The notes under the pieces: model-generated
What the model was told of the DNA's origin: nothing
Databases searched by the model: none
Seen by the model: only the letters and a program-made list of their open reading frames with translations
In this document: positions 2,775 through 58,226 of the stretch, piece after piece
How positions within the stretch are numbered: the stretch's first letter is position 1
Layout of the letters: each line of letters starts with the position of its first letter
Program-made: the position numbers and the translations under genes
NCBI GenBank assembly: GCA_012842395.1
Contig: DUSX01000002.1
Span: 186,001 to 250,000, forward strand
Length of the DNA: 64,000 nt
DNA from: Bacillota bacterium
GTDB taxonomy: Bacteria > Bacillota > SHA-98 > UBA4971
Direction of reading: 5' to 3'

Positions 2775-4049
2775 GTGAGCGTGTGTGCTTTGATAGCCGC
2801 GGCCGGGGCGGGCCGCAGGATGAAAGCTGGGCTCAACAAGGTGTTTCTACCCCTCCTCGGCGAGCCCGTGTTGCGCCACACCCTTCGGGCATTTGAGGAA
2901 TGTCCCAGTGTCGATGACGTGATCGTCATAGTGGCCCCGGGCGAGGTTGAGTCGACGCTGAGCGTCGTGGGCACTTGGAGCGAGATCTCGAAGGTGCGGA
3001 ACGTCGTGGCCGGAGGCGCCACGCGGCAGGAGTCGGTCTCCAGGGGGCTTGCCCACCTCGGTGCGGCGTGCGACATCGTGGTCGTGCACGATGGCGCACG
3101 GCCCTTGATTCGTCCTCACACGATCTCGCGTGTCGTGGGCGAGGCACGTGCATCCGCAGCGGCGATCGTCGCGGTTCCGGTTAGGGACACGATCAAGACG
3201 GTGCGTGGAGGCGAGGTCGTGTCGACGCTTGACCGCGATTCTTTGTGGGCAGCGGCGACCCCGCAGGCTTTTCGGAGGGACCTGATCGAAAGCGCGCACG
3301 AGACCGGCACAGGCGGCGGCATTTCGGCGACTGATGACTCAATGCTGGTGGAGAGGACAGGCGTGAGAGTCAAAGTGGTCCAAGGGGAATACGCTAATAT
3401 CAAGATCACCACGCCGGAGGACCTCGTGATCGCGGAGGCGCTGCTCGCTGCGATGAAGACGAATCGAATCCCGGAGGGCGGACCGGCATCTCTCGTCGAA
3501 GAAGGGCCGCAGCTGGCGAAGCTCTGGGCGCGAGGTGCGCCCAACGATGCGGCGGACCACGGGCCATGGGTGAGGGTGGGGATCGGCTTCGACGTGCACA
3601 GGCTGACTCGCGGGCGGGCCCTCGTCTTGGGCGGGGTTACCGTGCCTTTCGAACTCGGGCTTGAGGGACATTCCGACGCCGACGTCATTCTCCACGCCAT
3701 CGCTGACGCTATGTTGGGCGCATGCGCGCTCGGTGACATCGGCCGTCTCTTTCCCGACACTGATCGGGCGTTCGAGGGAATGTCCAGCGCGGTCATCCTT
3801 GAAAGGGTCCGGCAGCTAGTGGAAGGAGCAGGCTACGTCGTGGACAACGTGGATGCAATGCTCCTCGCCGAGCGGCCCAAGATAGCTCCTTATGTGGACG
3901 CCATGCGGGAGAGGGTGGCTCGCGTTTTGGGGGTGCCTGTAGGCTGCGTGAGCATAAAGGCCACCACCATGGAGGGGATGGGGTTCGTCGGGCGCGGCGA
4001 AGGCATGGCTTGTTATGCAACGTGCAGCGTTCGGCGCGTGAAATCGTGA
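2775..4049 (+). CDS. ispDF: Bifunctional IspD/IspF: MEP cytidylyltransferase and MEcPP synthase
   Basis: One 424-residue frame holds two enzymes of the non-mevalonate isoprenoid pathway. Residues 1 to about 230 are IspD (AAAGAGRRMKAG nucleotide-binding loop, GGATRQESVSRGL, VVHDGARPLI), which makes CDP-methylerythritol. After a linker of about 30 residues, residues 265-424 are IspF (GIGFDVHRL, LEGHSDADVILHAIADA, DIGRLFPDTD, TTMEGMGFVGRGEGM), which forms the cyclic diphosphate; the Asp and His zinc ligands are visible in GFDVH and HSDAD. The start is GTG after GAGAGGGGTGCAG. In most Bacillota ispD and ispF are separate neighbouring genes, so the fusion is worth noting. Confidence 0.95.
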   Translation: MSVCALIAAAGAGRRMKAGLNKVFLPLLGEPVLRHTLRAFEECPSVDDVIVIVAPGEVESTLSVVGTWSEISKVRNVVAGGATRQESVSRGLAHLGAACDIVVVHDGARPLIRPHTISRVVGEARASAAAIVAVPVRDTIKTVRGGEVVSTLDRDSLWAAATPQAFRRDLIESAHETGTGGGISATDDSMLVERTGVRVKVVQGEYANIKITTPEDLVIAEALLAAMKTNRIPEGGPASLVEEGPQLAKLWARGAPNDAADHGPWVRVGIGFDVHRLTRGRALVLGGVTVPFELGLEGHSDADVILHAIADAMLGACALGDIGRLFPDTDRAFEGMSSAVILERVRQLVEGAGYVVDNVDAMLLAERPKIAPYVDAMRERVARVLGVPVGCVSIKATTMEGMGFVGRGEGMACYATCSVRRVKS

Positions 4050-4481
4050 CGCTTCAAGCTGACGGCGTCCACGTGGGCGCCGTAGGTTCGCGCTGGCGCT
4101 GCCTTGCAGTGTGCAAGCCGGCAAGTCCTGCCGAAGGCTATCGGCCTTGCCATCAGAAGACGGCCCGCCTGCAGTGCGCCCAGTTCGAGTTCATCGCGCA
4201 GCCTGGTCGAATTCTCGACGCCCTGTGGTGCAAGCACCGGCAGGCTTGGCGCCCCCAGAAAGAGGGGCGAAGACTCAGCTACTGGAAACAAGGCAAAGAC
4301 TAACGCGCGAGACTGTTGAACTTCCCCCGCAACTACCAATCTACGCGGCCCCAGCGAAGGCTTTGCGGACTTCAACTGGGCCGAGACGGCATAATGTGGG
4401 GAAAACGAACGGTCTTGCGCACCGTCACTTAGGTTTGTTTATGCACAGAATACGAAATGAGCGATCCGGGAGGTAGAACAG
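4050..4481. other. Intergenic region carrying a dispersed repeat
   Basis: 432 bases without a supported gene between ispDF and the CBS-HutP gene. Short frames exist but have no family resemblance. The middle is copy A of the dispersed repeat described separately. No strong promoter was found; TTGCGC and TTTATG around 4418-4446 are too weak to call. Confidence 0.5.
4125..4241 (-). repeat. Dispersed intergenic repeat, copy A
   Basis: The 117 bases align without gaps to the reverse complement of 58110-58226, with 89 identities by hand count (about 76%). Shared blocks include GGCTATCGG, GACGGC, CGAATTCTC/CGAATTCTC-type and GCAAGCACCGGC. Similarity continues beyond the core towards 4285. It lies in the opposite orientation to copies B, C and D. 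Confidence 0.75.
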
Positions 4482-5252
4482 GTGACAGTAAAGCGGATAA
4501 TGAACGCGAATCCGGTGACGGTCGGGCCAGATACGCCCATCGCAGAGCTCCGAAGAGTAATGCTGAATAGCCGCACCAACTTCCTTCTCGTGACCGAGCC
4601 TGGCCGGGTGATCGGGATCATATCTGACAGGGATCTCCTCACCCCAGCCCAGGAAGCCTTGGTGGCACGGGACGTGATGGATACGAGGCTCATCAAGGTC
4701 TCGGACGAGTGCACCGTTTCGGAAGCGTGTTCATTCCTCGGCGATTCAAGCGCTCCAGCCCTGGTGGTCGTGGATAGCGAGGGCGAGCTCGCGGGGGTCG
4801 TGTCCCCGAGGGACATCGTCAAAGGGATGGCGGAGGATGAAGAGGTTACCAAGATCTCGGTGGAGTCCGCGTCCATATACCTCGTCATGACCCGCAGCCG
4901 GGAGTACGAGAAGTACTGGCTCGAGAAGGTTCGAGGATACGGGTACAGGGGTGCCATCACTCAGGTCGGTGCCAGCGCGGACCGCCTGGCTGCGAAGCTG
5001 CGCGAGAGCATGATCGCCGCTGCCGTCGCCCTTGGAGTGATCTCAGAGGACGCACGCGAAAAGATCGCGGTCTCCAACGCCGTGAGGGACGCTTACATAC
5101 AGCTTTCCCTCATCAACCCCGGGCTCGGTGGAGGATTCAAGCTGGCTGCTGTGCGTGGGGATGGTAGAGTATCGGTGGCTATCTTCGGACGGTTCGGCCA
5201 CGCGCTTGTCGACGGCCCGGAGCAGCTAGCCGTCGGCTACAGCGTGATATAG
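4482..5252 (+). CDS. CBS-domain pair fused to a HutP-like RNA-binding domain
   Basis: 256 residues. Residues 1 to about 120 are two CBS motifs (VKRIMNANPVTVGPDTPIAE; VVVDSEGELAGVVSPRDIV), which usually bind adenine nucleotides. Residues about 125-256 resemble HutP, the histidine- and Mg-dependent antiterminator of Bacillus: SREYEKYWLEKVRGYGYRG, ITQVGASADRL, AAAVALGVI, then GFKLAAVRGDGRVSVAIFG, which lines up with GLRFAVLRG and WIAVSLYG of HutP. The HutP histidines that bind metal (HALYH and GLEH motifs) are replaced here (IAVSN and GPEQ). I infer an RNA-binding regulator switched by the CBS pair. Start GTG after GGGAGGT with 7-base spacing. It precedes murA. Confidence 0.75.
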   Translation: MTVKRIMNANPVTVGPDTPIAELRRVMLNSRTNFLLVTEPGRVIGIISDRDLLTPAQEALVARDVMDTRLIKVSDECTVSEACSFLGDSSAPALVVVDSEGELAGVVSPRDIVKGMAEDEEVTKISVESASIYLVMTRSREYEKYWLEKVRGYGYRGAITQVGASADRLAAKLRESMIAAAVALGVISEDAREKIAVSNAVRDAYIQLSLINPGLGGGFKLAAVRGDGRVSVAIFGRFGHALVDGPEQLAVGYSVI

Positions 5253-5409
5253 CCCGCGTCACGCTACATTATGTCCGGGAATCGCCGCCGACCCCGTGAC
5301 ATGGGACGTACGCCAAGGTTTTGGCGGTCATCGTGAGCACGGTTGGCCGACTGCGACTGGCCGGCTCGTCGTGCCCCCGTGTGGGAAGCGGAGCTGTGGA
5401 GGGGTTGTC

Positions 5410-6681
5410 GTGGCAAAGCTGGTGGTGACCGGGGGAAACAAGCTTTCTGGTTCGGTTCGGCTGACCGGCTCGAAGAACAGCGCTCTCGCGATCCTCGCCG
5501 GGGCGGCGCTCGGGGTCGGAAAGACCGTTCTTGACAACGTTCCCAACTATACGGATACGCTGGTGCAATGCCAGATCCTGGAGGAGCTCGGAGCCAAGAT
5601 ACGGTTCCTTGGGCCAGGCAAGGTCGAGGTTGACGGCTCCAACATCACGAACCATCGACCCTCGTACGAGCTCGTGAGGCGCCTTCGAGCGTCGTTTTAC
5701 GCGGCGGGGCTGTTGCTGGCGCGTCTTGGGGCTGCAGAAGTTCCATTCCCAGGCGGGGACGTAATAGGCGCAAGGGGGATCAACTTTCATCTCGATGGGT
5801 TCAGGGCCCTCGGAGCCGAGGTTGCCGTCGAGCACGGGTACGTCAAGCTGCGGGCGAAGCGGCTGCGAGGGACCAGTTTCTACGTGGGCAAGGCAAGCCA
5901 CGGCACAACCGTTAACATGTTGCTCGCGGCGAGCCTTGCGGAGGGCACCACCATCCTGGAAAACGCCGCCCGCGACCCCGAGATCGTCGACCTTGCGATT
6001 TTGCTGAACTCTATGGGCGCGCGCATACGAGGCGCGGGCACGAGCACCATAAGGATCGACGGCGTCGATCGACTATCCTCAGCGAGACACGAGATCATCC
6101 CCGACAGGCTGGAAGCGGGCACGCTCGCCATAGCGGCAGCCATGACGTCCGGCGACGTGACCATCGAAAACGCTGTGCCCGAACACCTCAGGACGGTCAT
6201 CATTCAGCTTCAGGCGGCGGGAGCTGCCGTCGAGGAATACCAGTCCGTTCTGCGGGTTCGCGGGCCTCAGCGTTGCAACGCCGTGAACGTCGAGACGCAG
6301 CCGTATCCCGGGTTTCCCACAGACCTCCAGCCCCAGTTCGTTGCGATGATGACGCGCGCCACGGGAGTGAGCGCGGTTACCGAGACCCGGTTCGAGAACA
6401 GGTTCGGCTACGCTGATGAGCTCCGCAGGATGGGCGCGGACCTTCAGGTGGACAGGGACACGATAATCGTGCGGGGTGTCGAGAAACTCACTGGTGCTCC
6501 GGTGGAATGTCCCAGGGACATCCGTGGAGGGGCCGCCCTGGTGCTGGCGGGCCTCGTTGCTGAGGGCGATACGGAGATACGTGAGATTCACCACATAGAT
6601 AGAGGGTACGACCGGATAGAAGAGAAGCTCGCCTCGTTGGGGGCCTGCGTGAAGAGGATCAAGGACGGGGATGATCCGTGA
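5410..6681 (+). CDS. murA: UDP-N-acetylglucosamine 1-carboxyvinyltransferase
   Basis: 423 residues, the usual MurA length. It transfers enolpyruvate from PEP to UDP-GlcNAc, the first committed step of peptidoglycan synthesis. GSKNSALAILAG near the N-terminus holds the conserved Lys-Asn pair, and RASFYAAGLLLARLG precedes the active-site loop. That loop reads PGGDVIGAR: residue 117 is Asp where most MurA enzymes have the Cys attacked by fosfomycin. Such Asp forms are known from mycobacteria and chlamydiae and remain active but fosfomycin-insensitive. Start GTG after GGAGGGG. The stop overlaps the next start (GTGA). Confidence 0.95.
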   Translation: MAKLVVTGGNKLSGSVRLTGSKNSALAILAGAALGVGKTVLDNVPNYTDTLVQCQILEELGAKIRFLGPGKVEVDGSNITNHRPSYELVRRLRASFYAAGLLLARLGAAEVPFPGGDVIGARGINFHLDGFRALGAEVAVEHGYVKLRAKRLRGTSFYVGKASHGTTVNMLLAASLAEGTTILENAARDPEIVDLAILLNSMGARIRGAGTSTIRIDGVDRLSSARHEIIPDRLEAGTLAIAAAMTSGDVTIENAVPEHLRTVIIQLQAAGAAVEEYQSVLRVRGPQRCNAVNVETQPYPGFPTDLQPQFVAMMTRATGVSAVTETRFENRFGYADELRRMGADLQVDRDTIIVRGVEKLTGAPVECPRDIRGGAALVLAGLVAEGDTEIREIHHIDRGYDRIEEKLASLGACVKRIKDGDDP

Positions 6682-58071: not shown

Positions 58072-58226
58072 CATAAGTTTTCGTCTCATTTCTTCACGGC
58101 GTTAGGGTTGCCGGTGCTTGCGCGACGGGGCGTGGAGAATTCGGCCGCCTTAAGCTCCGAATTCGAACGAGGCGCGCCGCAAGCGCGCCGTCCCCGGAGG
58201 GCAACACCGATAGCCTTAGGCAGGAC
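58072..58226 (+). repeat. Dispersed intergenic repeat, copy D
   Basis: Core 58110-58226, 117 bases, aligning without gaps to copy A on the other strand (89 identities by hand count). The flank GTTTTCGTCTCATTTCTTC matches copy C. It contains near-palindromic GCGCGCCGCAAGCGCGCC and CCGAATTCG blocks and ends 78 bases before nadE. Confidence 0.75.

Follow-up and report, generated by a model that had tools for sequence, protein, structure and literature searches.

A conserved fusion of a CBS pair to a HutP fold that lacks the histidine triad of HutP, encoded in an ispD/ispF context in Bacillota

Analysis of a 64,000-nt stretch of DNA of a Bacillota bacterium (referred to as the window) revealed that the open reading frame at positions 4482-5252 encodes a pair of CBS domains joined to a true HutP fold, from which the ligand-holding residues of HutP are missing. 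This protein (CBS-HutP) has relatives with the same architecture, nucleotide-type CBS motifs and operon position. Our preferred reading, to which we assign a probability of roughly 0.4, is that CBS-HutP is an oligomeric, nucleotide-gated regulator with a HutP fold, probably RNA-binding, with a new specificity and with targets elsewhere in the genome. The features concerned are as follows:

4465..4481, + strand: region of the ribosome-binding site, upstream of the GTG codon, GGGAGGTAG (sequence)
4482..5252, + strand: gene for the CBS-CBS-HutP fusion protein, 256 aa (ORF, Pfam, homologous contig loci)
4488..4835, + strand: CBS pair, about residues 3-118 (Pfam CBS, conserved Asp, predicted fold)
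4860..5249, + strand: HutP-fold domain without the H73/H77/H138 triad, residues 127-256 (PF09021, hhalign, AlphaFold)
5064..5090, + strand: residues 195-203 (IAVSNAVRD), counterpart of HutP H73-x3-H77-x3-E81, with I195, N199 and D203 at these positions (alignments)
5214..5225, + strand: residues 245-248 (GPEQ), counterpart of HutP GLEH with H138 (alignment continued by eye)

The gene starts with a GTG codon preceded by a good ribosome-binding site (GGGAGGTAGAACAGGTG), and a site resembling it lies 5' of the gene in most relatives. Pfam searches detected two CBS stretches (E 6e-24) and, at residues 127-252, a HutP domain (PF09021; E 2.3e-27, 96.2 bits against a curated cut-off of 25) that spans positions 1-124 of the 128 in the profile. 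The AlphaFold model of this domain (pLDDT 92.7), in which the elements follow the order helix-helix-strand-helix-helix-strand-strand-strand, was matched by Foldseek to B. subtilis HutP (1vea; E 1.1e-6, TM 0.76), the only PDB chain found at E<0.001. The initial annotation had described a CBS pair fused to a HutP-like domain, and both the family search and the fold comparison confirmed this. The model of the whole protein had a pLDDT of 87.7 and a pTM of 0.52, and because of the latter value the mutual arrangement of the domains is unsure. When the HutP half was compared with PDB sequences by phmmer only chance-level matches were obtained, and the same was true of a profile of mixed HutP-family members; the kinship is visible only by Pfam, profile-profile and fold comparison.

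HutP is the standard example of an antiterminator gated by histidine. The protein is a hexamer that is activated by L-histidine and Mg and binds NAG repeats (PMC7430163). In a profile-profile comparison (hhalign; the B. subtilis reference sequence was checked against PDB 1vea), CBS-HutP and true HutP were aligned with a probability of 98.6 (E 7.9e-16), the C-terminal half following HutP along most of its length, as had been proposed. The segment AREKIAVSNAVRDAY of CBS-HutP was paired with YRESHALYHATMEAL of true HutP, and therefore H73 corresponds to I195 and H77 to N199. The hhalign alignment ends short of the C-terminus; extending it by eye and allowing for one inserted residue brings GLEHETFG opposite GPEQLAVG and H138 opposite Q248, while MAFFT gives P246, and neither residue is a histidine. 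The replacement of the HALYH and GLEH motifs by IAVSN and GPEQ had thus been read correctly. Neither H73 nor H77 is kept in any of 53 CBS-HutP domains (the respective columns contain I/M/S/L/V and N/Q/Y), and the H138 column is P/T with one stray His, which indicates that the loss of the histidines is a fixed trait of the clade.

CBS-HutP shares with B. subtilis HutP the fold, the family profile and most of the length, but differs from it in the clade-wide absence of the Mg/L-histidine ligands, a shortened segment around R98/T99, the additional CBS pair and the lack of linkage to hut genes; in the genome studied CBS-HutP is located on contig C2 and a hutH-family (aromatic amino acid lyase) gene on C38. 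Five further residues conserved in true HutPs (E55, T56, R88, R98 and T99) are lost in the CBS-HutP clade, with E55 replaced by I/T, T56 by A/V, R98 by L and T99 by G in 53/53 domains. We take E55, T56, R98, T99 and E137 to be the RNA-contacting residues of B. subtilis HutP; E137 alone may, to judge from the alignment, remain in CBS-HutP as E247.

A PF09021 protein is present in 257 of 398 sampled genomes of the phylum, while a B. subtilis HutP query matches only 24 of 299. The family comprises four groups, each forming one side of a tree branch (support 90-98): (i) true HutPs, with H73, H77, H138, E55, T56, R88, R98 and E137 in 15/15 proteins, (ii) a small clade (L119-L124) that keeps the H73/H77/H138 triad but has lost the other key residues of true HutPs (6/6), (iii) a stand-alone clostridial clade, the commonest of the family, with glycine in place of both H73 and H77 (47/47), and (iv) CBS-HutP, a single clade (SH-aLRT 97). 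Groups (iii) and (iv) are joined with a support of 87 in this tree, which has no outgroup; for this reason, and because the stem branches are long, the relations between the clades are unsure. Since all 47 stand-alone proteins also lack the histidines, their loss is not peculiar to CBS-HutP and is the commoner state of the HutP family. The window's genome encodes one protein of each kind, one CBS-HutP and one stand-alone member. The stand-alone clostridial proteins encoded beside aroH (e.g. L007, L056 and L001) resemble CBS-HutP in being HutP-family members without the triad, but carry no CBS domains, and their gene context is that of chorismate mutase and trp/aro/his genes.

The two halves of CBS-HutP are under different constraint, the HutP half having a mean pairwise identity of 77% and the CBS half one of 41%. 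The HutP domain of the clade is basic (median pI 9.3, compared with 6.5 in true HutPs), and the CBS half of the window's protein is acidic (pI 4.55). Both CBS domains contain the [S/T]-x-x-D ribose motif by which Bateman nucleotide sensors are recognized (S48-D49-R50-D51 and S108-P109-R110-D111); Asp51 is found in 42/42 and Asp111 in 41/42 sequences. This motif and the CBS pair are common to CbpB/DarB, OpuCA, AcuB and MJ0100, which, unlike CBS-HutP, carry other outputs or none, and the model of the CBS half matched pairs solved with c-di-AMP (OpuCA), AMP (AcuB) and SAM (MJ0100). The score of CBS-HutP with the NCBIfam CbpB model (22.9 bits) is far below the cut-off of 125. Proximity of the gene to disA was considered as an argument for c-di-AMP as the ligand and dropped, because this gene neighborhood is an ancestral one and diadenylate cyclases are encoded almost universally. 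A relative whose genome is 90% complete (G008) keeps CBS-HutP without any diadenylate cyclase domain, which speaks weakly against c-di-AMP.

The counterparts of the old HutP pocket are also mostly conserved: D203 and E247 in 42/42 sequences, Q248 in 41/42 and N199 in 38/42; G245 of the GPEQ segment is present in 42/42. The suggestion that the ligand sensor had moved to the CBS domains is plausible, but conserved polar residues (N199, D203, E247 and Q248) occupy the positions of the old pocket, which may thus have been adapted to bind something new and not given up.

The genome collection yielded 45 loci, of which 44 encode CBS-HutP; the remaining one (L104) is stand-alone by its residues and place in the tree. 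The carriers include Orenia, Halanaerobium, Halanaerobacter, Natroniella and Halothermothrix (Halanaerobiales), and a contig labelled Aneurinibacillus (L097), a label that looks wrong from its neighbors in the tree. Within the window's class the gene is present, as one copy each, in 15 of 17 genomes, the two without it belonging to one family. The gene order, with local losses, is clpC-radA-disA-carD-PIN/TRAM-ispD-ispF-CBS-HutP-gltX (or murA-rlpA)-cysE-cysS-mrnC-thyX-rlmB-sigH (genes were named from recognizable sequences and general knowledge, some by profile search). All CBS-HutP loci with flanks have the ispD/ispF context, although in two of them (L073 and L078) an ispD-like gene alone lies upstream, ispF being apparently absent, and a probable membrane protein gene follows. 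In Halanaerobiales the gene is mostly located within about 35 nt of ispF, a distance which suggests that it is probably co-transcribed with ispDF. The same order without CBS-HutP is the usual, old arrangement in Firmicutes, and the synteny therefore speaks for vertical inheritance more than for function; since all known copies occupy one syntenic place, the context provides no independent clue to the target. The placement upstream of murA, stated in the initial annotation, is correct for the window but lineage-specific, as gltX follows in most relatives.

An RNA antiterminator acting in cis on murA was not supported. No terminator or promoter match was found within positions 3900-5500 of the window, the region 4040-5430 contains no match to an Rfam family, and the predicted folding of the CBS-HutP/murA spacer is not stronger than that of shuffled sequences (z 0.26). 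The within-genus alignment of this spacer was poor, one row being a one-base stub. The relatives showed no conserved terminator or leader hairpin around CBS-HutP, a terminator-like hairpin following the gene in just 4 of 42 loci. A T-box, which is a known element, occurs in several Halanaerobiales after gltX and before cysE/cysS.

The 432-nt gap between ispF and CBS-HutP, which is unusually long in the window, was rejected as a conserved leader, since it holds dispersed repeats instead. Positions 4121-4433 are occupied by two adjoining families of non-coding repeats, one of about 155 and the other of about 130 nt, which appear to be structured, and a further copy lies at 58109-58226 on the minus strand. 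The genome contains 40 or more incomplete copies (66-87% identity), and more are present in four relatives of the genus; none were found in two other genera searched. The copies are sometimes solitary and several end near ACTTAG. These repeats may be MITE-like or a structured RNA.

The mechanism best supported by these observations is a nucleotide-gated action of a HutP-fold oligomer on RNA or on a protein partner. CBS-HutP would form a ring-shaped oligomer like that of HutP, and its CBS pair would bind a nucleotide of the adenine type (ATP/AMP/ADP, SAM or c-di-AMP), and this binding would alter how the HutP domains are arranged or how active they are. The basic, strongly conserved HutP domain would then bind nucleic acid, most likely RNA; RNA binding is probable, judging solely from the kinship of the fold. 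Its specificity would differ from that for the NAG repeats of hut mRNA, and its targets, possibly reached in trans, would probably lie elsewhere in the genome and not at its own locus. The closely related proposal of a HutP-type RNA regulator, whose ligand control has passed from the L-histidine/Mg pocket to the fused CBS pair, is one that we hold only tentatively.

It is rather unlikely that RNA binding has been lost from the HutP domain and that CBS-HutP instead responds to nucleotides by allosterically regulating another protein, for example an enzyme of the MEP pathway encoded in its own operon (IspD/IspF). The invariable position after ispD/ispF, often within the short distance seen in Halanaerobiales, would suit such a role, but the age of this operon order in Firmicutes makes the neighborhood weak evidence. 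The presumed RNA-contacting residues are not conserved and the locus has no cis RNA signal, yet a basic and strongly conserved domain suits a nucleic-acid surface. A precedent for a CBS protein with a protein target is DarB/CbpB, which is reported to act on Rel (PMC7900238, PMC8549634).

Unlikely, too, is a pocket (N199, R202, D203, E247, Q248) that senses a different small molecule without metal, with the CBS pair as a modulator: its residues are mostly conserved rather than drifting, and other clades have changed the pocket together with the gene context (hutH beside some true HutPs, aroH beside the clade with two glycines), but this conservation could reflect structure. A further reading, in which CBS-HutP serves histidine use as an ordinary HutP that depends on L-histidine and Mg and has simply gained a CBS pair, is highly improbable and was rejected; membership of the HutP family and a hutH-family gene in the genome agree with it, but the triad is absent throughout the clade, and a conserved ispDF operon is found in place of a nearby hutH.

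No paper describing the CBS-HutP architecture or HutP-like families was found in the open-licence literature searched. Most HutP-family proteins examined here lack the metal/ligand site and are encoded in other operons, and the CBS fusion, together with the aroH-linked clade, offers a case in which the rewiring of a single RNA-regulator fold to new signals can be tested. Should CBS-HutP indeed bind RNA in a manner controlled by nucleotides, it would connect the energy or second-messenger state of the cell to regulation at the RNA level, through a gene conserved in Halanaerobiales and in the window's class.

Other members of the family were found in different surroundings. The stand-alone clade (C9:224156-224524, or L001, in the window's own genome; L003-L059) lies mostly upstream of aroH, in many Bacillota families, and trpE, aroF or hisC follows aroH in many cases. 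An aroH-type neighbor was present in 39 of 48 loci, confirmed once as chorismate mutase type I, and this clade may be an unrecognized regulator of aromatic or histidine synthesis. Among true HutPs, a hutH-family gene adjoins that of L105 and L117, while in L107 (2101-3432) the gene downstream of a true HutP is not hutH but one of the trimethylamine methyltransferase family (MTTB). The small triad-keeping clade is located near genes such as those for CoA-transferase, oxaloacetate decarboxylase subunits and transporters.
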